Positions 17,733 to 32,626 of a DNA stretch of 36,177 nucleotides are shown here, piece by piece; position 1 is the stretch's first letter; each line of letters starts with the position of its first letter. Source of the DNA: an uncultured Clostridia bacterium (GTDB taxonomy: Bacteria > Bacillota > Clostridia > UBA1212 > UBA1255); contig CANQOI010000021.1 in the NCBI GenBank assembly GCA_947625435.1, positions 1 to 36,177 on the forward strand, written 5' to 3'. Made by a program: the position numbers and the translations under genes. A model generated the notes under the pieces. That model was given only the letters and a program-made list of their open reading frames with translations, was not told the origin of the DNA and did no database searches.

Positions 17733-18104
17733 TCAGTCAACTGAGAGATCCACAGTATAATAACCGGGTCCCTCCGATATGTCGATAATGATTTCGGTCG
17801 CAACATAAATGACAGCTACCAAAATGATGATTGAAGCGGCGATTATAATTGATTTTTTAATAATTCTGCGGGTCCTTCGCAGCGACGTAACATCCTTGCC
17901 CTGATAATCGGAAGCAATATCATCGGGAAAACCGAAAATATCTGTCACATCATTCATGGATCTAACAGCTCCCTCATCGATCTTAGCATCTATATCAGAC
18001 TTGAGATCCGAGAGTATCTTATCCTTCTCCTCCTTATCGCAGATCAAAAGTGATCTAATGTTCCTGTAGTATTTTCTGAGCTTCTTAGATAGTTTTTCTT
18101 CCAT
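17733..18104 (-). CDS. HAAS/DUF6120-like membrane protein, second copy
   Basis: Small membrane protein, 123 residues. The N-terminal ~70 residues are a helical domain of the HAAS/DUF1700/DUF6120 type: LSKKLRKYYRNIRSLLICDK, then EKDKILSDLKSDIDAKIDEG and MNDVTDIFGFPDDIASDYQG, whose last part matches the family's G-x-P-x-x-I-A pattern. One transmembrane segment (about 84-108) and a short outer tail follow. It is a tandem duplicate of the upstream gene: the cytosolic domain is nearly identical, while the membrane segment and tail have diverged. A signalling or regulator-binding role with PadR is inferred from the usual pairing. Confidence 0.75.
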   Translation of the reverse strand: MEEKLSKKLRKYYRNIRSLLICDKEEKDKILSDLKSDIDAKIDEGAVRSMNDVTDIFGFPDDIASDYQGKDVTSLRRTRRIIKKSIIIAASIIILVAVIYVATEIIIDISEGPGYYTVDLSVD

Positions 18105-18139: not shown

Positions 18140-18511
18140 TCAGTCAACTGTGAAATCTATTTTCATATAATACGTTCCCTTGGCTATATTGATGATCAGA
18201 ATGATCACAACATATAAAACGGCAATTAAGATCAAAATTAAAACGACTGCTATGATCGATTTTATGATGATCCTGCGTATGTTTCGCAGTGATGTGACAT
18301 CCTTGCCCTGATAATCGGAGGCAATATCATCGGGAAAGCCGAAAATATCTGTCACATCCTTCATGGATTTAACAGCGCCCTCATCGATCTTAGCGTCGAT
18401 ATCCGACTTCAGATCTGAGAGTATCTTATCCTTCTCTGTCTTATCGCAGATCAACAGCGATCTAATGGTTCTGTAGTATTTTCTCAGCTTCTTAGATAAC
18501 TTTCGTTCCAT
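18140..18511 (-). CDS. HAAS/DUF6120-like membrane protein, first copy
   Basis: First gene of the PadR operon, 123 residues, a near copy of the gene downstream. The domain from MERKLSKKLRKYYRTIRSLL to FGFPDDIASDYQGKDVTSLR differs at only a few positions from its partner. The transmembrane part (about 83-110) and tail TYYMKIDFTVD differ more. The ATG at 18511 follows AAGGAGA by a good distance; an upstream in-frame start at 18535 has no ribosome site. Divergence concentrated in the membrane and outer part suggests the two copies sense different partners with the same inner domain. That is inference. Confidence 0.75.
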   Translation of the reverse strand: MERKLSKKLRKYYRTIRSLLICDKTEKDKILSDLKSDIDAKIDEGAVKSMKDVTDIFGFPDDIASDYQGKDVTSLRNIRRIIIKSIIAVVLILILIAVLYVVIILIINIAKGTYYMKIDFTVD

Positions 18512-18558
18512 ACAGGTTGCTCTCCTTATACTCAATTATTACCGATCTTGCTATGGGC

Positions 18559-18685: not shown

Positions 18686-18758
18686 TATGCCGTATCCTGA
18701 TTAGGAAAAAATTTATATTTTGAACAACGCTTTTAGTTTTATTAAGGTGGTGATGAAT

Positions 18759-19478
18759 ATGAAAAGAGTGTTGTTTTGCTGCTTTTTGTTGATCGTGTTA
18801 TCGGTTTTTCCGGTATGCGCCTATGCTTCGGAGGAGACGCCTGCTTCGCCTACCAAGTATTATGCGGCAGGCCCGCGAGAAGGAGAAGTAACAAATATCG
18901 GCGTTGCCGTATATCCGGACAACTCATTTGAGATAACCGTATCTACAACAGAGAGGAATTTCGGAGCATTACGGTATCTGGTAGTATATGCGGAAAATGA
19001 TGAACCGGTTATTGATGACCCTGTTCTGTTTTTAGGTGGCGTACCTGACAGACAAATGTGGAGTTACAGATTTTATGGTGGGGACGCGCTGTTCCCGACA
19101 GAGAATACGTATGCGCATCTGGATGAGAATGAGATGCTTAAGCCGGGCAGATACTATGCGATCATGGAGGACGAATGGGGAGGTATCGAGACTGAGAAAG
19201 CATACTTTACAATTCCGGATATTAACCTGTGGTGGACGCCGCAGCCTGTACCTACAGCAGAGCCTACGCCTACCGAGGAACCGGTAGTACGCACACAGAA
19301 CCCAATATTGCCCACTATTTCCGTACAGACGAAGGCCTCGCCTTTGCATACGGCGGTAAACACTGATGCCAATGCATCTGACAGAAGCTCCGTACCGCTC
19401 ATACTGTGCATTATTTTCGGTATAATTATACTCGCGGAAACTGTGTACATAGTGTTTGTACACATCAAAGATAAATAA
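18759..19478 (+). CDS. Surface protein with Pro/Thr linker and C-terminal anchor, copy 1
   Basis: Unrecognised exported protein, 240 residues. A signal peptide (KRVLFCCFLLIVLSVFPVCAYA) leads to a beta-rich domain (GEVTNIGVAVYPDNSFEITV to about residue 165, ending AYFTIPDINLWWTPQP). A Pro/Thr/Glu-rich linker (VPTAEPTPTEEPVV) and a C-terminal transmembrane anchor (VPLILCIIFGIIILAETVYI) follow. The ATG at 18759 is eight bases after AAGGTGG; starts at 18720 and 18753 are less suitable. No sortase motif is seen. A second, nearly identical gene follows. The layout suggests a binding domain held away from the membrane. It is the first gene of an operon ending in an NlpC/P60-like protein. Confidence 0.8.
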   Translation: MKRVLFCCFLLIVLSVFPVCAYASEETPASPTKYYAAGPREGEVTNIGVAVYPDNSFEITVSTTERNFGALRYLVVYAENDEPVIDDPVLFLGGVPDRQMWSYRFYGGDALFPTENTYAHLDENEMLKPGRYYAIMEDEWGGIETEKAYFTIPDINLWWTPQPVPTAEPTPTEEPVVRTQNPILPTISVQTKASPLHTAVNTDANASDRSSVPLILCIIFGIIILAETVYIVFVHIKDK

Positions 19479-19507: not shown

Positions 19508-20236
19508 ATGAAAAAAGTGTTGTTTAGCTGTTTTTTGTTGATCGTGTTATCGGTTTTTCCGGTATGCGCCTATGCTTCGGAGGAGACGCCTGCATCGCAT
19601 ACTCCGTATGCGGGGGGGCTGCGTGAAGGAGAAATAACAAATATCGGCGTTGCCGTATATCCGGACAACTCATTTGAGATAACCGTATCTACAACAGAGA
19701 GTGATTTCGGAGCATTACGGTATCTGGTAGTATATGCGGAAAATGATGAACCGGTTATTGATGACCATGTTCTGTTTTTAGGTTGTGTCCCGGACATGCA
19801 AATGTGGAGCTACAGATTTTATGGTGGGGACGCGCTGTTCCCGACAGAGAATACGTATGCGCATCTGGATGAGAATGAGATGCTTAAGCCGGGCAGATAC
19901 TATGCGATCATGGAGGACGAATGGGGAGGTATCGAGACTGAGAAAGCGTACTTTACAATTCCCGATAAAAACCTGTGGTGGACGCCGGAGCCCGTACCTA
20001 CAGCCGAGCCTACGCCTACCGAGGAACCGGTAGTACGCACACAGAACCCAATATTGCCCACTATTTCCGTACAGACAAAGGCCTCGCCTGTGCATACGAC
20101 GGTAAGCACTGATGCCAATGCATCTGACAGAAGCTCCGTGCCGCTCATACTGTGCATTATTTTCGGTATAATTATACTCGCGGAAACTGTGTACATAGTG
20201 TTTGTACACATCAAAATCAATTCAAAATCAGAATAA
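19508..20236 (+). CDS. Surface protein with Pro/Thr linker and C-terminal anchor, copy 2
   Basis: Tandem duplicate of the preceding gene, 242 residues, offset by 749 bases. Signal peptide, domain, linker and anchor are nearly identical at DNA and protein level. Differences cluster just after the signal peptide (TPASHTPYAGGLREGEI), in one loop (LFLGCVPDMQMW) and at the C-terminus (HIKINSKSE). GGGAGGAGAT before the ATG is a good ribosome site. The close identity means a recent duplication or ongoing gene conversion. Function is unknown. Confidence 0.8.
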   Translation: MKKVLFSCFLLIVLSVFPVCAYASEETPASHTPYAGGLREGEITNIGVAVYPDNSFEITVSTTESDFGALRYLVVYAENDEPVIDDHVLFLGCVPDMQMWSYRFYGGDALFPTENTYAHLDENEMLKPGRYYAIMEDEWGGIETEKAYFTIPDKNLWWTPEPVPTAEPTPTEEPVVRTQNPILPTISVQTKASPVHTTVSTDANASDRSSVPLILCIIFGIIILAETVYIVFVHIKINSKSE

Positions 20237-20259
20237 AAAACAGGAAAGGAATGAAAAAT

Positions 20260-22005
20260 ATGAAAATATTGAAGAAAATAAGAATATTTGCATTGATCGT
20301 CACAGCAACTGTTACTTTAAGTTTCTTGTCTCCTTTGGTATCACTTGCCGGTTTATATACCGCTGCCGATTTTCAAACAGTTCGCATGAATAACAAGGAA
20401 GCTGTAGAAAAATTAATTGAGCTTGCCACGGTTTACAATACGAAATACGTAAACGGGACTGTCGGCCAGAAGCTTACTGATGGTTTGATTGATAGTACTT
20501 CAAATAATTCGGGCGGCAACGAATCTCGTGCTGACAAAAATAAAAAAAGAGTTCCGTATAATTATTACGCTTTTGATTGCTGCGGAATGGTTAAAGCTTT
20601 ATTCCTCTGGGGTTGGGACAGCGGTAAATATCAATATAATGGAAATGAGGATGTAGATCAGTCAGCTCTCTGGGAAATGTGTGATAACCAAAGCTATTCA
20701 TTTACATCTAAAGAAAGTATAAAGCCGGGTGAGTTTTTGTATAGAAGTGGTCACTGCGGTATTTATATAGGTGACGGTTATGCGGTCGAATGTACTCCGG
20801 ATTGGAACAGCGGCGTCCAGATCAGCAGAGTTATAATGAATGGGGATCCGTCAACAGATAAATCAGACCGTGCAAAAAAATGGACAGGCCACGGTGAACT
20901 GCCGTTCATTAAGTATACATACAATAACTTGTACAAAACATCATCCAAAGGTATGCTTCAGTTAAATAAAAGCTCTTATTCTCCGGGAGAACAGATAAGA
21001 ATTACAGTTAAAGGTCTCGGAAACAGTTCTTATGATAACGCATTTATATCCATGTATTCAACGAGATTTCCAACTGAGACTTATAATAGCCTGAATAATT
21101 GGTGCTACATTTAAAACGGAAAACAAGAAAAGCCCGGCGGAACGCCTTCATCTACCGAGGTTCTGTATTTGGATGCTAATTCATACTTAAATGAAAAAAA
21201 GACAGCATTGTCTCCCGGTACCTATACGATTATGCTGTACCCTGACGGCGGCAGCGGATCAATTGACAAGATCACATTTGAAGTTAAGTATCCTACAATA
21301 AACAAGGCTTGTTATTCGGAGGGTTCGGTTGATGTGAGCATTAACGGGTATGTAAATGAATCCGCATGGGTTGGTCTATACTACAATAGTACGACAGACT
21401 TTCAATCTATTAAGTCACTTGCATGGCATTATGCTAACATTGAAGTAACAAACAGACTGGATTACGGTGGTTTTCATATAACACATGTACGCTTTAATGT
21501 AAGTAAGGTCAGCATTTCGAATGTTTCCAGTTACAAAATAACATTATTTACTGATGAAAATTACAATAATTTAGCCGATCAAAAGCAGCTGCAAGAAACA
21601 TATCGTCATGATGATATTCTGACAAAATATTCCGGTACTACATATACGAACAAGCTGCATATAAGCTCAAAGTCATATGAGATCGGAGATGTAATGAAAA
21701 TCGATTTTTCGAAAATAAGCAACAAGAATGCATGGGTCGGTCTGTATCCGGCAAATACAACTGATTACAAAAATCATCCCACAGGTATGTGGGTATACAC
21801 ATCTACAGGAACACAGTGGCAAATGAATGCAGGTTATTCAGATTTCTTCCCGGCGAACGGAACTGTTTACCTGCACGCCAACAAATCTGACATTGACACC
21901 GGTACAGAGTTGAATACTCCCACAGGCGAATACAAGCTTGTTCTGTTTGGTAATGAAGGATATACAAATATTTTAGATACGGTGACAATAACAATAAAAT
22001 ACTGA
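20260..22005 (+). pseudogene. NlpC/P60-like cell-wall protein with three repeats, interrupted by TAA
   Basis: Read through one in-frame TAA (21112-21114), this frame gives a ~581-residue exported protein. The signal peptide ends near SPLVSLAG. An NlpC/P60-like domain has the probable catalytic Cys in YAFDCCGMVKALF and His in GHCGIYIGDGYAVECTP. Three beta-sandwich repeats follow: the first begins KGMLQLNKSSYSPGEQIRIT, the second has AWVGLYYNSTTDF, the third AWVGLYPANTTDY. The stop lies inside repeat 1, in NNWCYI-stop-NGKQEKPGG, and coding continues in the same frame on both sides, so this is a single-codon change (for example AAA to TAA) or a read-through site. Without read-through the product would keep signal peptide and peptidase domain but lose most repeats. 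AAAGGA precedes the ATG at 20260. Confidence 0.75.
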
Positions 22006-25150: not shown

Positions 25151-25930
25151 ATGAATAGATTTAAGTCCATAGGTTTATTATTGCTGCTGCTCGCAGCGTT
25201 GTTCATTTTAAGTGCATGTAATGAAAATGCTCAACCGGAAATACCGGACAATGATCACGTCGGTCATACAGAACTGGGTGACGACGCCTCGCCGAGCAAG
25301 GATATCGCTGCCTCGCCGAGCAAGGATAACAGCTCTTCGCATGTGAGCGAGCAATTGTATGTGTATGTGCCTGAAAATGCAGTAAGACTCAATGACAACG
25401 AGTTGGATTATTTTAATTCTTCGTTTTTTGTATCCGGAAGCGACATATATGATGAACATTCATTGCCGTTACGGTTTTTGACAAGCTTTTATAACATACC
25501 TGAAGATATTGATATGTACGAACTGTGTTATAACGGTTTTTCGCATGACAGTACGATCATATCTCCGGAGGAAGCGTCTCTGCTGGCAGAGAAAGGGATA
25601 GATGCAAATCTTGATGTACGCAAGATCACAGCTGGGGAAATAGATGACATTTTACGGGAATACACCGGCATTTCACTGAAAGATTCAAAAGGTAAGGGAC
25701 TGGAAAGGTTTATATATCTGCCTGAATATAACGCGTACTATATAAGTACAGGCGACGTAAATCAAGCAATAAAATACACTGTCACGGCGGGATATCGTAC
25801 CGACGACGGTGAATATGTATTGTGGTACGATCTGAATGAAAATAAATCTACGGATGAAAATCAATATGCTAAAGTCACATTGAAAAAAGAAGATGACAGA
25901 TATATTTTTGTTTCAAATAAGAAAATTTAG
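25151..25930 (+). CDS. Putative lipoprotein of the ABC transporter operon
   Basis: Lipoprotein of 259 residues, not recognised beyond that. The signal peptide (LLLLLLAALFILS) ends at lipobox LSAC, lipid on Cys22. A low-complexity linker (about residues 24-66) contains ASPSKD twice, also repeated in the DNA, then a beta-rich domain follows (YVYVPENAVRLNDNELDYFN to GYRTDDGEYVLWYDLNEN). AAGGA about eight bases before the ATG supports the start. It is the first gene of an operon with two FtsX/MacB-like permeases and an ATPase, so it may be the substrate-capturing or sensing partner; that is inference. Confidence 0.75.
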   Translation: MNRFKSIGLLLLLLAALFILSACNENAQPEIPDNDHVGHTELGDDASPSKDIAASPSKDNSSSHVSEQLYVYVPENAVRLNDNELDYFNSSFFVSGSDIYDEHSLPLRFLTSFYNIPEDIDMYELCYNGFSHDSTIISPEEASLLAEKGIDANLDVRKITAGEIDDILREYTGISLKDSKGKGLERFIYLPEYNAYYISTGDVNQAIKYTVTAGYRTDDGEYVLWYDLNENKSTDENQYAKVTLKKEDDRYIFVSNKKI

Positions 25931-28498: not shown

Positions 28499-29182
28499 AT
28501 GAGCTTTATAAATTTTGAAAACATTTCACTTACTTACAGAACGAAAACGCAGACGATACCCATATTTGACGATCTGAACCTCAGCATAGACAAAGGGGAA
28601 TTTGTTACGGTGTACGGCCCTTCAGGCAAGGGTAAATCTACGCTGCTGAATCTCGTTTCCGGATTCCTTCGCCCCGACAGCGGTAAAATATTTGTCGACG
28701 GCTCTGACCTGTGCGCGCTTTCTGAAAATGAAGTGTGTGCGTACAGAAATAAGCGTATAGGATATATTTTCCAACAGTTTAACCTGATATATCAGTTTAA
28801 TGTGCGCGACAATGTGGCGGTCCCTCTGCTGCTCTCGGGTATGAAGAAGTACGATATTGAACGCAGGGTCGATGAGCTTCTGGATATGATAGGGCTTTCA
28901 AACAGAAAAAACGAGTACCCGCGCACGCTTTCGGGCGGTGAGCAGCAGCGTGTCGCTTTTGCGAGAGCCGTGGCAAATGATCCGGATATAATACTTGCCG
29001 ACGAACCCACGGGAAACCTCGATTCGGCAAACGGAAGAAAGCTTATTAAGCTTATTAAAGATCTCAATACCGATAAAAATATAACTGTTCTTTGTGTCAC
29101 GCATGACGCACGCATATTGGAACAAAGCGGATCGGGCGGCAGCCGTATGATAGACATTGAAACGATAACGATGCAGTCATGA
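28499..29182 (+). CDS. ABC transporter ATP-binding protein, MacB/LolD type
   Basis: Cytosolic ATPase of 227 residues that powers the two permeases. Walker A is GPSGKGKST, the Q-loop FQQFNL, the signature LSGGEQQR, Walker B DIILADEPTGNLD, and the H-loop VTHD. The DEPTGNLD continuation and the VRDNVAVPLLLSG block are characteristic of the MacB/LolD/FtsE group. It starts two bases after the permease stop with AAGGAG inside the preceding gene, so it is translationally coupled. All catalytic residues are present, which suggests the operon was functional recently despite the stop in the first permease. Confidence 0.93.
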   Translation: MSFINFENISLTYRTKTQTIPIFDDLNLSIDKGEFVTVYGPSGKGKSTLLNLVSGFLRPDSGKIFVDGSDLCALSENEVCAYRNKRIGYIFQQFNLIYQFNVRDNVAVPLLLSGMKKYDIERRVDELLDMIGLSNRKNEYPRTLSGGEQQRVAFARAVANDPDIILADEPTGNLDSANGRKLIKLIKDLNTDKNITVLCVTHDARILEQSGSGGSRMIDIETITMQS

Positions 29183-29184
29183 AA

Positions 29185-29221
29185 AAACCGGTCCTTACCG
29201 CACATGCTGCGGCAAGGACCG
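29185..29221 (-). terminator. Intrinsic terminator of the DUF1858 gene
   Basis: Arms CCGGTCCTT-x-CCGCA and TGCGG-x-AAGGACCGG pair at 14 positions with one mismatch; on the minus strand six T residues follow. It also lies three bases past the ABC ATPase gene and may stop that transcript. Confidence 0.8.
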
Positions 29222-29241
29222 GCTATGATCGAAAGCTGCGA

Positions 29242-29442
29242 TCATTTTGAATCCAGATAATCGTTAATGGACCTGAGTACTTCGTCTGCGTCAAGTCCGT
29301 GTACTTCACAGGCCTGCTCGAGAGATTCATTTACGGAAGAAGGACAGCCTACGCAGTGCATTCCGCATTGCATGAGTACATATGCTATCCCGGTGTCATA
29401 CTCAAGCATTTCACCCATAGTCGTTTGTTTTGTTATTTCCAT
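29242..29442 (-). CDS. DUF1858 redox-disulfide protein
   Basis: Small cytosolic protein of 66 residues of the DUF1858/TIGR03980 family (hybrid-cluster-protein-associated redox disulfide domain). ITKQTTMGEMLEYDTGIAYV is the conserved N-terminus, followed by the cysteine motif QCGMHCVGCPSS and ESLEQACEVHGLDADEVLRS. The paired cysteines suggest a redox or metal role, which is not proven for the family. GGGGGT is 11 bases from the ATG. It has its own promoter and terminator and is flanked by accessory genes, so it is a conserved single gene in the accessory stretch. Confidence 0.88.
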   Translation of the reverse strand: MEITKQTTMGEMLEYDTGIAYVLMQCGMHCVGCPSSVNESLEQACEVHGLDADEVLRSINDYLDSK

Positions 29443-29469
29443 GTTCAGTCACACCCCCTTGCTCCGTTT

Positions 29470-29498
29470 ATTATAGCATCTGTTTTACGATTTGTCTA
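29470..29498 (-). promoter_or_regulatory. Promoter of the DUF1858 gene
   Basis: On the minus strand TAGACA (29493-29498), a 17-base spacer and a perfect TATAAT (29470-29475). Confidence 0.8.
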
Positions 29499-29591
29499 AA
29501 ATAAAAGCATATTAAAAGAATATAATAATCCTATGTCAAACACATGAACAGATTAAAATTTTGCAAATATACATTGATTTCATGAACGACA

Positions 29592-29615
29592 ATTATAAAT
29601 TTGCAAATTTATAAT
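29592..29615. promoter_or_regulatory. Perfect 24-bp palindrome, candidate operator
   Basis: The 12-base arm ATTATAAATTTG is followed directly by its exact complement CAAATTTATAAT. A related half (TTTTGCAAATAT) lies about 35 bases upstream. It sits 17 bases before the -35 box of the next gene. The A+T-rich setting makes chance symmetry easier, but a perfect 24-mer remains notable. Confidence 0.5.
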
Positions 29616-29624
29616 GAACTTTTT

Positions 29625-29685
29625 AATTTGTATTGACTTCTATATAAGTGCATGGTACACTATAACAAAATGTATTGTTGTGTAC
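29625..29685 (+). promoter_or_regulatory. Promoter of the secreted protein / cysteine peptidase pair
   Basis: AATTTGTA (29625-29632) abuts the -35 TTGACT (29633-29638); a 17-base spacer leads to TACACT (29656-29661). Inverted GTACAC (29655-29660) and GTGTAC (29680-29685) span the start site, and an exact AAAATGTA lies between them at 29667-29674. Confidence 0.5.
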
Positions 29686-29706
29686 AAATTATAGGAGATA
29701 AGTTAT

Positions 29707-30648
29707 ATGCGTGTCTACAGAACAAGAAGAACTATAATTATCTTTATGAGCCTGCTGCTTGTATTGATATTATGCTTGGGTTATGTGAATATTCTTAAGC
29801 CATCCTACGCTGCGTATGCCGATATAGGCGCTGATGTTAAGGAGACGATCAAAGGATTTCCGTACTATAATAAAACGGTTGAGCTTTCGGATGAGGAGTC
29901 GGAGAAACGCATTGAAAGATTGGATTCTCTTGACCCTTGGTTTGCAGTACCTTCCGGATACAGCAGCGTTAATACTTATATATCCGATATAAACCCATAT
30001 GAAACAAGGGAAGAGTGGTTGTCTGTCAGTGTACAGAAAAGAGTTGAATTGTCTCAGATACCGGAAGATATGCTCAAGACAATGTCAACGGATGAACTGA
30101 TTGTCTCATGCTTGAATTATAATCTGCTCATAGATCTGGTGCTATACGATACGATCCGCGACGGCTTTGAGATATTAAAGAAACAGTTCAATGGTTTCGA
30201 AGAGCTGCTTGCAAGACCGGATGCCGGGCACAGGTTAGTTGAACTGTATAAGGCTGTCGATTATGACGAGTTGTACGAAAATGACAGAGGCGCATACCTT
30301 CACATGTTATTGCTTCATACTCTTCTCTGCGAGGACAGCGTATTGGATTCATTAAATGAGACGGAAGTCAGTTCATTGATAAATGCTTCCCATGACAAGT
30401 ACATGAAATTATTAAACGAAGGCTCGCCTTTGTTTAATTATGAAAATGATGTGCGGGTATGTCTTAAATGTTTATATGTTCACGATCCGTCTGTAAAGGA
30501 CGTAATTGATAATTCCGATGCTCTTAAATGCTTTATAAGTGACGAAAACGTTATTATACCGATTGATGATATTGATGACGGATCGGTCGGGAAAATTGCA
30601 TCTGTTATGGATGAATATTATATTGCGGAGAAAGGCAGGAGTGATTGA
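29707..30648 (+). CDS. Secreted helical protein of unknown function
   Basis: Exported protein of 313 residues, not assigned to a named family. The N-terminal signal (TIIIFMSLLLVLILCLGYVN) is followed by a mostly helical domain. PEDMLKTMSTDELIVSCLNY with NLLIDLVLYDTIRDGFEIL and FNGFEELLARPDAGHRLVEL recall a set of uncharacterised clostridial secreted proteins with a T-x-x-L-(IV)-x-x-(VC)-L-x-Y pattern. AGGAG at 29693-29697 supports the ATG. It is followed after one base by a small putative cysteine peptidase, so the two products probably act together outside the cell, for example as inhibitor or substrate and enzyme. That is inference. Confidence 0.75.
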   Translation: MRVYRTRRTIIIFMSLLLVLILCLGYVNILKPSYAAYADIGADVKETIKGFPYYNKTVELSDEESEKRIERLDSLDPWFAVPSGYSSVNTYISDINPYETREEWLSVSVQKRVELSQIPEDMLKTMSTDELIVSCLNYNLLIDLVLYDTIRDGFEILKKQFNGFEELLARPDAGHRLVELYKAVDYDELYENDRGAYLHMLLLHTLLCEDSVLDSLNETEVSSLINASHDKYMKLLNEGSPLFNYENDVRVCLKCLYVHDPSVKDVIDNSDALKCFISDENVIIPIDDIDDGSVGKIASVMDEYYIAEKGRSD

Positions 30649-30649
30649 A

Positions 30650-31240
30650 ATGAAAAATGGTAGAAAAATTTTTTCTGTTTTGTTAGTTGCTTTTGCATTG
30701 CTTGTTTCGATTATTAATGTGTACGCTGTCCGTATTATATCACAAGATAGTACATATGGTTTTACTATAGTACAAGAACTTGAAACTTTAGACAATGGTA
30801 CAGTTGCACGCAAATGGATATCTGGCGATTATAATGATGCGCAGAAAAAAGAGTTGACGAAGTATGTTATGGATAACTACGATATAATTCAGGAGTTATA
30901 CGCCGGACAACCTACAGTTAAGTATAATTGCCACTCATATGCATGGTTTTCTCAAGAGATAAATAATCTGTATTGGATTGATGATCCTCAAAAATTCAGG
31001 GAAGGTAATTGGCTCAAATCTACAGGTTGGACGGATACAATGCCATCCGGTATAAAAATCGGGGATGTTGTTGATTATTATATTTCTGAAAACAACAGAC
31101 CACATTCGGCTCTTGTATCGTCTGTATTGCTTAATTGGGTTTCTTCAAAATGGGGTTCGTTAGGTCTTTATATGCATACGCTTACAGAAGTACCTGCAGG
31201 GTATAAATGTGATCAATTCGGATACTACAGAATGAAATGA
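30650..31240 (+). CDS. Small secreted NCHSYAW protein, putative cysteine peptidase
   Basis: Exported protein of 196 residues. A signal peptide (ILVAFALLVSIINVYA-like; the run VLLVAFALLVSIINVYA) precedes a domain with YNCHSYAWFSQEINNLYWID (Cys near residue 88) and IKIGDVVDYYISENNRPHSA (His near 161). Cys at a helix start and a later His on a strand after a GD turn is the NlpC/P60-CHAP arrangement, so I suggest a papain-like peptidase or amidase. AGGAG (30638-30642) lies seven bases before the ATG, inside the upstream gene. The function is unproven; the NCHSYAW family has no role that I know. Confidence 0.7.
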   Translation: MKNGRKIFSVLLVAFALLVSIINVYAVRIISQDSTYGFTIVQELETLDNGTVARKWISGDYNDAQKKELTKYVMDNYDIIQELYAGQPTVKYNCHSYAWFSQEINNLYWIDDPQKFREGNWLKSTGWTDTMPSGIKIGDVVDYYISENNRPHSALVSSVLLNWVSSKWGSLGLYMHTLTEVPAGYKCDQFGYYRMK

Positions 31241-31288
31241 CTTGTTATTTTTAATATTTATCTACACTATTGCGATTGCGGTTAAATG

Positions 31289-31326
31289 CGGAGAATTGCT
31301 TTTAATAAGTTAGTTCTCCGTATTTT
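31289..31326 (+). terminator. Probable terminator after the NCHSYAW gene
   Basis: Arms CGGAGAA (31289-31295) and TTCTCCG (31314-31320), an 18-base loop, then TATTTTC. The long loop and short T run make it a moderate terminator. Confidence 0.55.
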
Positions 31327-31434
31327 CAAAATCAGTTAAACGCAAACTTATCCCGGAAGTGTGTGACTTTGCAGAACTGTTTTCGGAAAGTCATATTTAC
31401 TCAATACCCTGTTTTGGATTATAAAATAATCAAA

Positions 31435-31472
31435 TTGAACCGAAGCGGCTTTTATGCTATCATAAGCATAAA
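31435..31472 (+). promoter_or_regulatory. Promoter and palindromic operator of the oxidoreductase gene
   Basis: TTGAAC (31435-31440), a 17-base spacer and TATCAT (31458-31463). A perfect dyad TTTATGCT-N6-AGCATAAA (31451-31472) covers the -10 box, the expected place for a repressor. Confidence 0.65.
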
Positions 31473-31498
31473 TAAAAAAAACGGGAGGAACGATCTGA

Positions 31499-32626
31499 AT
31501 GGTTAAAATAGGAATAGTCGGAGCCAGAGGGTTTTCGATAGTGAGCGCGGTAAAAGCGATGCCGGAGGATGCTCGCATCACCGCCATGTGCGATCTTGAT
31601 ACGGAGTGCCTCGAAAAGGCGAAAAAGGAGATAGGGCTGGATGACAGCATGTGCTTCCGCGTCTATGAGGATATGCTCGAGAAGGCAGACATAGACGCCG
31701 TTGTCATTTCAACACCGATGCAGTGCCACGTGCCCCAGGCGATACTCGCGCTGCAGGCAGGCAAGCACGTTATGTGCGAGGTCACTGCCGCGGTCACGAT
31801 GGACGAACTCTGGTGGCTCATTGAGAACGTGGAGAAATCCGGTAAAATATACATGTATGCCGAAAATTACTGCTATATGCCGTCGGTTCAGCTCGTGCGC
31901 ACCATGGTAAAGCAGGGTCTTTTCGGTGAAATATACTACGGCGAGGGCGAATATACGCACAACTGTACCGAGCTTCGCAATTGGCACGGTAAAACGGGAT
32001 GGCGTTCGTACTGGCAGATGGGAACGAGAGGGTCATTTTACCCGACGCACAGCCTCGGGCCGGTTATGCAGTGCTTTGACGATGACAGGATCGTCGAGAT
32101 AGCCAGCTTCAGCCCCGGCAACCACAATCCGTACGGACTGAGGAACGACGACCTGACTCAGACGCTCTGCATGCTGGAGAGCGGCAAGCTCGTTAAGATA
32201 CGCGTTGACACAATCTCACCGCGTCCCCATGCTATGACATATTATCAGATACAGGGCACAAAGGGCTGCTACGAGGCCGCCCGCGGTCTCGGCGACGTAG
32301 ACAAGATCGCGATATCCACGGACGAGGATCCCGACGGCTGCAACAGCTGGAAGCCGCTCAGCGATTTCAATCATCTGCTCCCGGACAGATACAAGGAAGG
32401 CAAGGGCGAGGGCGCAGGCCACGGCGGCGGAGATTATTATATCGTGGCCGATTTCATAGACGCGATCAAGACCGGAGTGCAGCCGGAGCTGAACGTATAC
32501 AAAGCGGCGGAATGGACGTCCGTTGCTCTGCTCTCACAGCTTTCAGTCACGAACAACGGCCGCATTTTCCAGGTGCCGAATTTCAGGGCGGGAATGCCTT
32601 GGAGTGAGAAACGCATTAAGATCTGA
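31499..32626 (+). CDS. Gfo/Idh/MocA oxidoreductase, GH109-like
   Basis: NAD-dependent oxidoreductase-fold protein of 375 residues. The Rossmann motif is IGIVGARGFS (4-13), the cofactor loop VVISTPMQCHVPQAILALQA and the EK-P-like segment GKHVMCEVTAAVT. NWHGKTGWRSYWQMGTRG, then YPTHSLGPVMQ, matches the catalytic region of GH109 glycosidases (alpha-N-acetylgalactosaminidase type), which use NAD in a redox-elimination mechanism. The His in PTHSLG fits the catalytic position. GGAGG precedes the ATG. It has no signal peptide, so acts in the cytosol on imported sugars. A plain dehydrogenase remains possible. Confidence 0.85.
   Translation: MVKIGIVGARGFSIVSAVKAMPEDARITAMCDLDTECLEKAKKEIGLDDSMCFRVYEDMLEKADIDAVVISTPMQCHVPQAILALQAGKHVMCEVTAAVTMDELWWLIENVEKSGKIYMYAENYCYMPSVQLVRTMVKQGLFGEIYYGEGEYTHNCTELRNWHGKTGWRSYWQMGTRGSFYPTHSLGPVMQCFDDDRIVEIASFSPGNHNPYGLRNDDLTQTLCMLESGKLVKIRVDTISPRPHAMTYYQIQGTKGCYEAARGLGDVDKIAISTDEDPDGCNSWKPLSDFNHLLPDRYKEGKGEGAGHGGGDYYIVADFIDAIKTGVQPELNVYKAAEWTSVALLSQLSVTNNGRIFQVPNFRAGMPWSEKRIKI

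Follow-up and report, generated by a model that had tools for sequence, protein, structure and literature searches.

Gene pair and upstream region

The window, by which we mean the whole 36,177-nucleotide stretch of DNA that was analysed, lies on contig C21 of the 2.03-Mb, 86-contig genome (G000) of an uncultured Clostridia bacterium. It carries two adjacent genes on the forward strand, here termed A and B, whose coordinates are collected in Table 1 together with those of the surrounding features. The two genes are separated by one base, and the ribosome-binding site of B sits inside A, so that the two-gene unit of the original prediction is borne out. Both products begin with a basic and hydrophobic leader (judged by eye) and therefore look exported, in keeping with the export that had been claimed for both. 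The genes are AT-richer than their neighbours, with a GC content of 39.9% for A and 35.4% for B as compared with 45.6% for the ABC transporter ATPase gene before the pair and 54.9% for the oxidoreductase gene after it; in the 264-nt stretch before gene A, the value is 26%. Other low-GC genes among those measured in the window include 20251-21114 and 25151-25930. The strong hairpin that follows gene B has a weak T run, and the terminator scan did not report it.

Table 1. Features of the A/B locus (positions within the window).
Feature	Position	Strand	Description	Basis
Perfect 24-bp palindrome	29592-29615		ATTATAAATTTGCAAATTTATAAT; candidate operator	sequence and shuffles; function inferred
Candidate promoter	29633-29661	+	TTGACT-17-TACACT, 9/12 matches; tentative	promoter-site scan
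Imperfect inverted repeat	29655-29685		GTACAC (29655) / GTGTAC (29680); near presumed transcription start	
Gene A	29707-30648	+	313 aa; probably exported helical protein	ORF
Ribosome-binding site of gene B	30637-30641	+	AGGAG; inside end of gene A	sequence
Gene B	30650-31240	+	196 aa; probably exported papain-like domain	ORF, HMM, model
RNA hairpin after gene B	31280-31333	+	possible terminator; -20.5 kcal/mol, z -5.5	

The perfect palindrome upstream of gene A is present as originally described. It is the sole perfect palindrome of at least 16 bp within the window, its length was equalled in 0 of 5000 dinucleotide shuffles of the 267-nt upstream stretch and in 0 of 60 shuffles of the whole window, and its sequence has a single place in its own genome with up to 3 mismatches allowed. 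In another genome of the genus that carries the pair (G003), visual inspection of the 400 nt before it showed no such palindrome. A dedicated regulator probably binds at the palindrome. The inverted repeat that had been reported across the start site does exist, but it is unremarkable and may be of chance origin: a perfect 9-bp repeat is also present (29624-29632 and 29683-29691), and 450 of 2000 shuffles contained one or more perfect repeats of that length with loops of up to 60. The candidate promoter was rejected as an assignment, promoter-like sites in 29180-31500 occurring at the rate expected by chance (12 found against 9.7 +/- 3.2 in shuffles).

Elsewhere in the window (20152-22005, forward strand) lies a gene whose probably secreted product matches NlpC/P60 weakly (E 0.0045, short of the cut-off); a stop at 21112-21114 is followed by an ORF in the same frame (21169-22005) that resembles a continuation, and the stretch is a pair of genes or else a single broken one. 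Also on the forward strand, 18720-19478 and 19508-20236 are adjacent and, by eye, nearly identical surface-protein genes, probably the outcome of a recent tandem duplication. On the reverse strand, 17733-18104 and 18140-18535 are adjacent near-copies (by eye) of a small membrane-protein gene, situated upstream of a secreted-protein gene of the same strand; a gene downstream of these copies, again on the reverse strand, we take to be PadR-like. Between the ABC transporter and gene A, a small reverse-strand ORF (29242-29442, by eye) is presumably of the DUF1858 type.

A two-domain family and its split forms

In Pfam and NCBIfam, neither A nor B had a match that reached the curated cut-offs, comparisons with PHROGs (best E 0.03) and with PDB sequences stayed at chance level, and PADLOC matched no family to either protein; none of the libraries searched has a name for the pair, which had been put forward as possibly undescribed. 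A set of 55 fused relatives reached at best E 0.0054 in Pfam and 0.0081 in NCBIfam, the former being a weak match to DUF7689 (PF24738) seen in 3 of the 55; B itself has no match to this family at E <= 1. Neither the NCHSYAW motif nor DUF7689 was mentioned in the open-licence literature searched. Viral contigs, scanned with a few peptide patterns, yielded no confirmed relative, and no phage record with B was found. The fused protein does have a relative (30.7%, E 3e-29) in one metagenomic record labelled 'Bacteriophage sp.' (MT835658.1, 2202-3152).

The relatives that place A and B in context are single proteins in which a leader is followed by an all-helical domain of about 190 residues and then by a papain-like domain, the latter recognizable by a Cys in YNCHSYAW, a His in HSGIV or HSALV, and a conserved SKWG...H block. 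Proteins with an A-like start and an NCHSYAW...HSGI...SKWG...H end are encoded by G264 (R. papyrosolvens), by G223 (two proteins) and by a Flavonifractor plasmid. The G264 protein (locus L006), identical to that of Ruminiclostridium papyrosolvens locus L013, aligns by blastp with A through its residues 50-184 (36% over 135 aa, E 7e-22) and with B through its residues 264-354 (38% over 100 aa, E 3e-14), the database size behind these E-values being set by us. Residues 14-236 of A match the N-terminal helical domain of the family; an HMM of this domain from which A was left out recovered A at E 4.9e-36, and an HMM of the C-terminal domain that included B recovered B at E 5.8e-34. Within its own genome, the fused-family profile detected only A (2.6e-30) and B (3.8e-31), the next match being at 0.2. 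Adjacent and in this order, A and B together supply what defines the fused family, namely a helical domain and an NCHSYAW domain behind it.

A genome-contig scan found 178 YNCHSYAW stretches, 172 of them confirmed relatives, and the best 80 of these 172 correspond to 79 distinct loci. The two domains, as called with an N-domain HMM built from 30 of the scored sequences and a C-domain HMM built from all of them, lie in one ORF in 67 of the 79, helical domain first and NCHSYAW second, a share that is probably overstated because loci were ranked by likeness to a fused query. At 8 of the 79 loci (best of 172) the domains occupy separate frames; a further locus, L064, in which the domains share one frame with masked N letters between them, was excluded from the split count. 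No helical domain is detectable at 3 of the 79 (L087, L088 and L090), L088 beginning 80 bases from a contig end. Of the eight, L068 and L080 show two clean genes, each with a leader (by eye), and L091 resembles a clean pair except that its second gene is broken and its start open. L069, L073, L077, L082 and L085 are ambiguous: the frames of their two domains differ, and the genes could be broken ones. Genome G218 has two clean genes, and the closed Parabacteroides distasonis plasmid NZ_OY725812 a clean pair whose annotated genes overlap by 4 bp. The hosts of clean pairs are another Clostridia genome, a Patescibacteria MAG, a Prevotellaceae MAG and the P. distasonis plasmid, and the helical gene comes first in every case. 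The recurrent linkage of NCHSYAW and helical families, which the original prediction had named as a check, is thus found both in the fused genes and in clean pairs elsewhere.

ORFs with the helical domain only accompany fused genes at 12 of the 79 loci (HMM; best of 172), that of L040 being just an 83-aa fragment overlapping the fused gene. At L059 (5902-10003), a fused gene is followed by three consecutive ORFs with weak helical-domain matches. In one Oscillospiraceae MAG, locus L016 (3-8442) has an array of six family genes, all in one orientation and the first truncated at the locus edge, which suggests diversification through duplication.

YNCHSYAW is invariant across the 79 loci because the scan selected on it. 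In scans of the class and phylum in which the motif was not imposed, relatives carry NCHSYAW or close variants, and the Cys and His are kept at 6 of 7 loci that were read among those found without the motif pattern (L095-L100, with variants NCHAYAW and NCHAFSW; L098 is the same sequence as L064 of the motif scan), the seventh, L102, matching the domain end only.

The family is sparsely distributed across Bacillota, Bacteroidota, Chloroflexota, Elusimicrobiota, Actinomycetota and other phyla. B was detected in 2 of 97 genomes and in 5 of 391 from its class, and A in the same 2 of the 97; at the level of the phylum, the family was seen in 7 of 398 genomes, the genome of the window being included in each count. 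In G003, A-like (41% over 310 aa) and B-like (74% over a 110-aa piece) genes are adjacent, the B-like frame being interrupted. The gene content within about 1.5 kb on either side of the pair in G003 is unlike that in the window, which suggests that the pair moves as one unit. In a C-domain tree of 85 rows, the window pair and that of G003 form a group (100/99) whose long branch lies among fused proteins of Bacillota, and G218, L068 and L080 are placed elsewhere, also among fused rows; on a tree with many open forks, this visible scatter makes several independent splits or fusions likely.

Fold and putative active site of B

YNCHSYAW occupies residues 92-99 of B. The original prediction had drawn attention to a cysteine, which lies in this motif, but had put it near residue 88, and its position is 94. 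Later conserved His residues stand at 152 and 176; in 86 aligned sequences, His152 is kept in 82, Ser166 in 83 and His176 in 83, and Lys167 is also conserved. In the structural model of B (48 sequences; mean pLDDT 81.8, pTM 0.75, with residues 1-4 and 11-25 under 50), a helix opens at Cys94 and a strand at His152, and the next strand ends at Ser166-Lys167. Residues ~80-196 of the model resemble NlpC/P60 enzymes, namely B. cereus 3h41 (Z 8.1, 97 residues, rmsd 3.0) and MepS (Z 7.7), a best Z of 7 to 8 being, as the fold-search tool remarks, typical of models without a clear match. Foldseek alone returned no match at E <= 0.001 for the model of B or for that of the fused protein, and its best E for B was 0.097. 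The fused R. papyrosolvens protein was modelled, at high confidence, as one body (pLDDT 91.9, pTM 0.86); the folds nearest to its C domain are the type VI amidase effectors Tae1/Tse1 (Z 7.7, rmsd 3.2, 100 residues), MepS (7.6) and the LysK CHAP domain (6.1), and its helical domain resembles only helical-repeat proteins (CRM1, Z 6.4), which is weak for an all-helical domain.

Against 11 CHAP domains, hhalign aligned 30 columns around the catalytic His (E 2.9e-4, probability 41%), with GD...HxxIV in register and His152 of B opposite the CHAP His; against 10 NlpC/P60 domains it gave nothing (E 0.13), a weak test because the related CHAP and NlpC/P60 profiles themselves reached only E 0.047. B has no match at E <= 1 to either NlpC/P60 (PF00877) or CHAP (PF05257), a listing of 20 families hit by the 55 fused relatives (E <= 0.1) does not contain PF00877, and PF05257 matches one of the 55, at E 0.04. 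As modelled, the family resembles NlpC/P60 enzymes in the C-domain fold (Z 7-8) and in the order of Cys-helix and His-strand, and its export is likewise probable; it differs from them in its dedicated helical domain and in having the SKWG block where the usual third His would be expected. With CHAP amidases it has in common the local GD...HxxIV profile and a Cys that opens a helix, and it differs from them in having SKW in place of the SE.NW of CHAP. From Tae1/Tse1 it differs in its plain leaders (by eye) and in its occurrence mostly in Bacillota. The GD motif, which PMC10318531 assigns to strand 1 of the NlpC/P60-CHAP cluster, is Gly138-Asp139 in B, both letters being kept in only 10 of the 86 aligned sequences. 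According to the same paper (PMC10318531), papain-like families vary in their third catalytic residue, which can be His, Ser or Cys, and Ser166 and His176 are therefore fair candidates for this role.

Fold matches and secondary-structure positions thus agree with the Cys-then-His layout of NlpC/P60 or CHAP type that had been claimed for B. On the model, B very likely has a papain-like fold, and we consider it probable that B is an active enzyme; by analogy with the nearest folds, a cell-wall peptide is, by a small margin, the favoured substrate.

Neighbouring genes, alternative readings and proposed role

The neighbourhood of family genes is enriched in lipoprotein genes. Among co-directional genes within 300 bp of a family gene at the 79 loci (best of 172), 22 of 78 were called as lipoproteins, as compared with 11 of 424 other operon-like genes (odds ratio 14.8, p 5e-12), ORFs having been called mechanically and lipoproteins by a crude, home-made lipobox rule. 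When the set was thinned to 65 loci with identities under 60%, the counts were 18 of 67 against 10 of 337 (p 4e-9), and with near-copies removed 17 of 65 loci have an adjacent lipoprotein gene. One lipoprotein group recurs at six loci, on either side of the family gene, and the remaining lipoproteins do not cluster at E 1e-5; at L099 and L100, a lipoprotein-like gene overlaps the end of the family gene (by eye). The window pair has no adjacent lipoprotein gene, the nearest lipoprotein-like gene seen being 25151-25930, beyond the ABC transporter. Genes for a BlaI-type repressor and an M56 sensor, assigned from Pfam matches of their own or of genes with which they cluster, lie directly upstream at 3 of the 79 loci (L049, L066 and L083). 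At L037 (4908-7113), an ECF-type sigma gene (Pfam) is followed by the gene for a predicted membrane protein with an outer helical domain and then by the enzyme gene, and L073 (5200-7405) has the same layout, its sigma gene being assigned by clustering only. The membrane protein of these two loci is a possible sensor that uses the helical domain of the enzyme.

The dedicated partner or inhibitor of the original prediction is not supported in the sense of a separate antagonist. A reading in which B acts as an enzyme or toxin, with A as a distinct protein that inhibits it or confers immunity, would accord with two adjacent, probably exported products in one unit and with the helical-only ORFs beside fused genes. 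Yet at most of the 79 loci (best of 172) the helical domain belongs to the same polypeptide as the enzyme, an arrangement unsuited to a removable immunity protein, and its presence on the outside of the membrane protein of L037 and L073 suits recognition better; we regard a separate antagonist as very improbable and have rejected it as the main reading. Because the helical domain is fused N-terminally in so many relatives, A looks instead like the structural or targeting half of the enzyme. A helical domain that precedes a papain-like domain is often a propeptide, and the helical part comes first in clean pairs and fused proteins alike, which would also fit a propeptide-like latch, the fused forms being zymogens and the split form placing the latch on its own chain. 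The invariance of Arg119 of the helical domain (55 of 55 rows) goes beyond what a simple plug would apparently require, and we hold the latch to be quite unlikely. A somewhat better prospect, though still an unlikely one, is that a single helical recognition domain serves both the enzyme and its own regulator, whether fused, as a free subunit or within a membrane protein as at L037 and L073; if this is true, the regulator would detect the enzyme's own substrate, with the adjacent lipoproteins giving the producer protection.

With respect to the C domain, the lipoprotein neighbours raise the question of an interbacterial weapon, in which an exported papain-like toxin is accompanied by an adjacent lipoprotein immunity gene and the window version is without one. 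The enrichment itself, the largely unclustered nature of the lipoproteins (the group in six loci excepted) and their occurrence on either side, the patchy distribution of the family, and the presence of Tae1 and of a papain-like toxin/immunity pair among the fold matches would all be in keeping with such a role. Set against this are the lack of an adjacent lipoprotein gene in the window, leaders that seem to be plain, and ECF sigma and BlaI/M56 neighbours that would equally fit envelope stress; moreover, secreted proteins could have lipoprotein neighbours for other reasons. We consider the weapon doubtful, yet the least unlikely of these alternatives. It is decidedly unlikely that the C domain retains the fold as a binding protein and is no enzyme: its third catalytic residue is not obvious, as this would allow, but the Cys and His persist at 6 of the 7 loci read among relatives found without the motif pattern.

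We therefore return to A and B as split halves of one enzyme, a reading that we hold highly probable. The family is real and nameless in the libraries searched, and the pair would be a case of a split enzyme, of a known general kind; our favoured account, which we hold to be likely, is that it constitutes a new family of exported papain-like hydrolases, here divided into two re-associating chains. One transcript with closely coupled translation would yield A and B, each of which would be exported via its own leader, and the two would re-associate outside the cell. B would provide the active site, with Cys94 as nucleophile and His152 as base; the third residue would be Ser166, situated on the next strand, or else His176. 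A would contribute binding or positioning. The reaction, judged by the nearest folds, would most likely be the cutting of an amide bond in a cell-wall peptide, belonging either to the cell itself or to a competitor, and a regulator would act at the upstream palindrome.

For proteins that have gone without a name in several phyla, including relatives in Ruminiclostridium papyrosolvens, Paenibacillus polymyxa and Parabacteroides distasonis, we accordingly propose a function class and a two-domain definition, and we point out their lipoprotein and sigma-factor partners. We further suggest that the free helical protein, where it occurs, may be a subunit of the enzyme.
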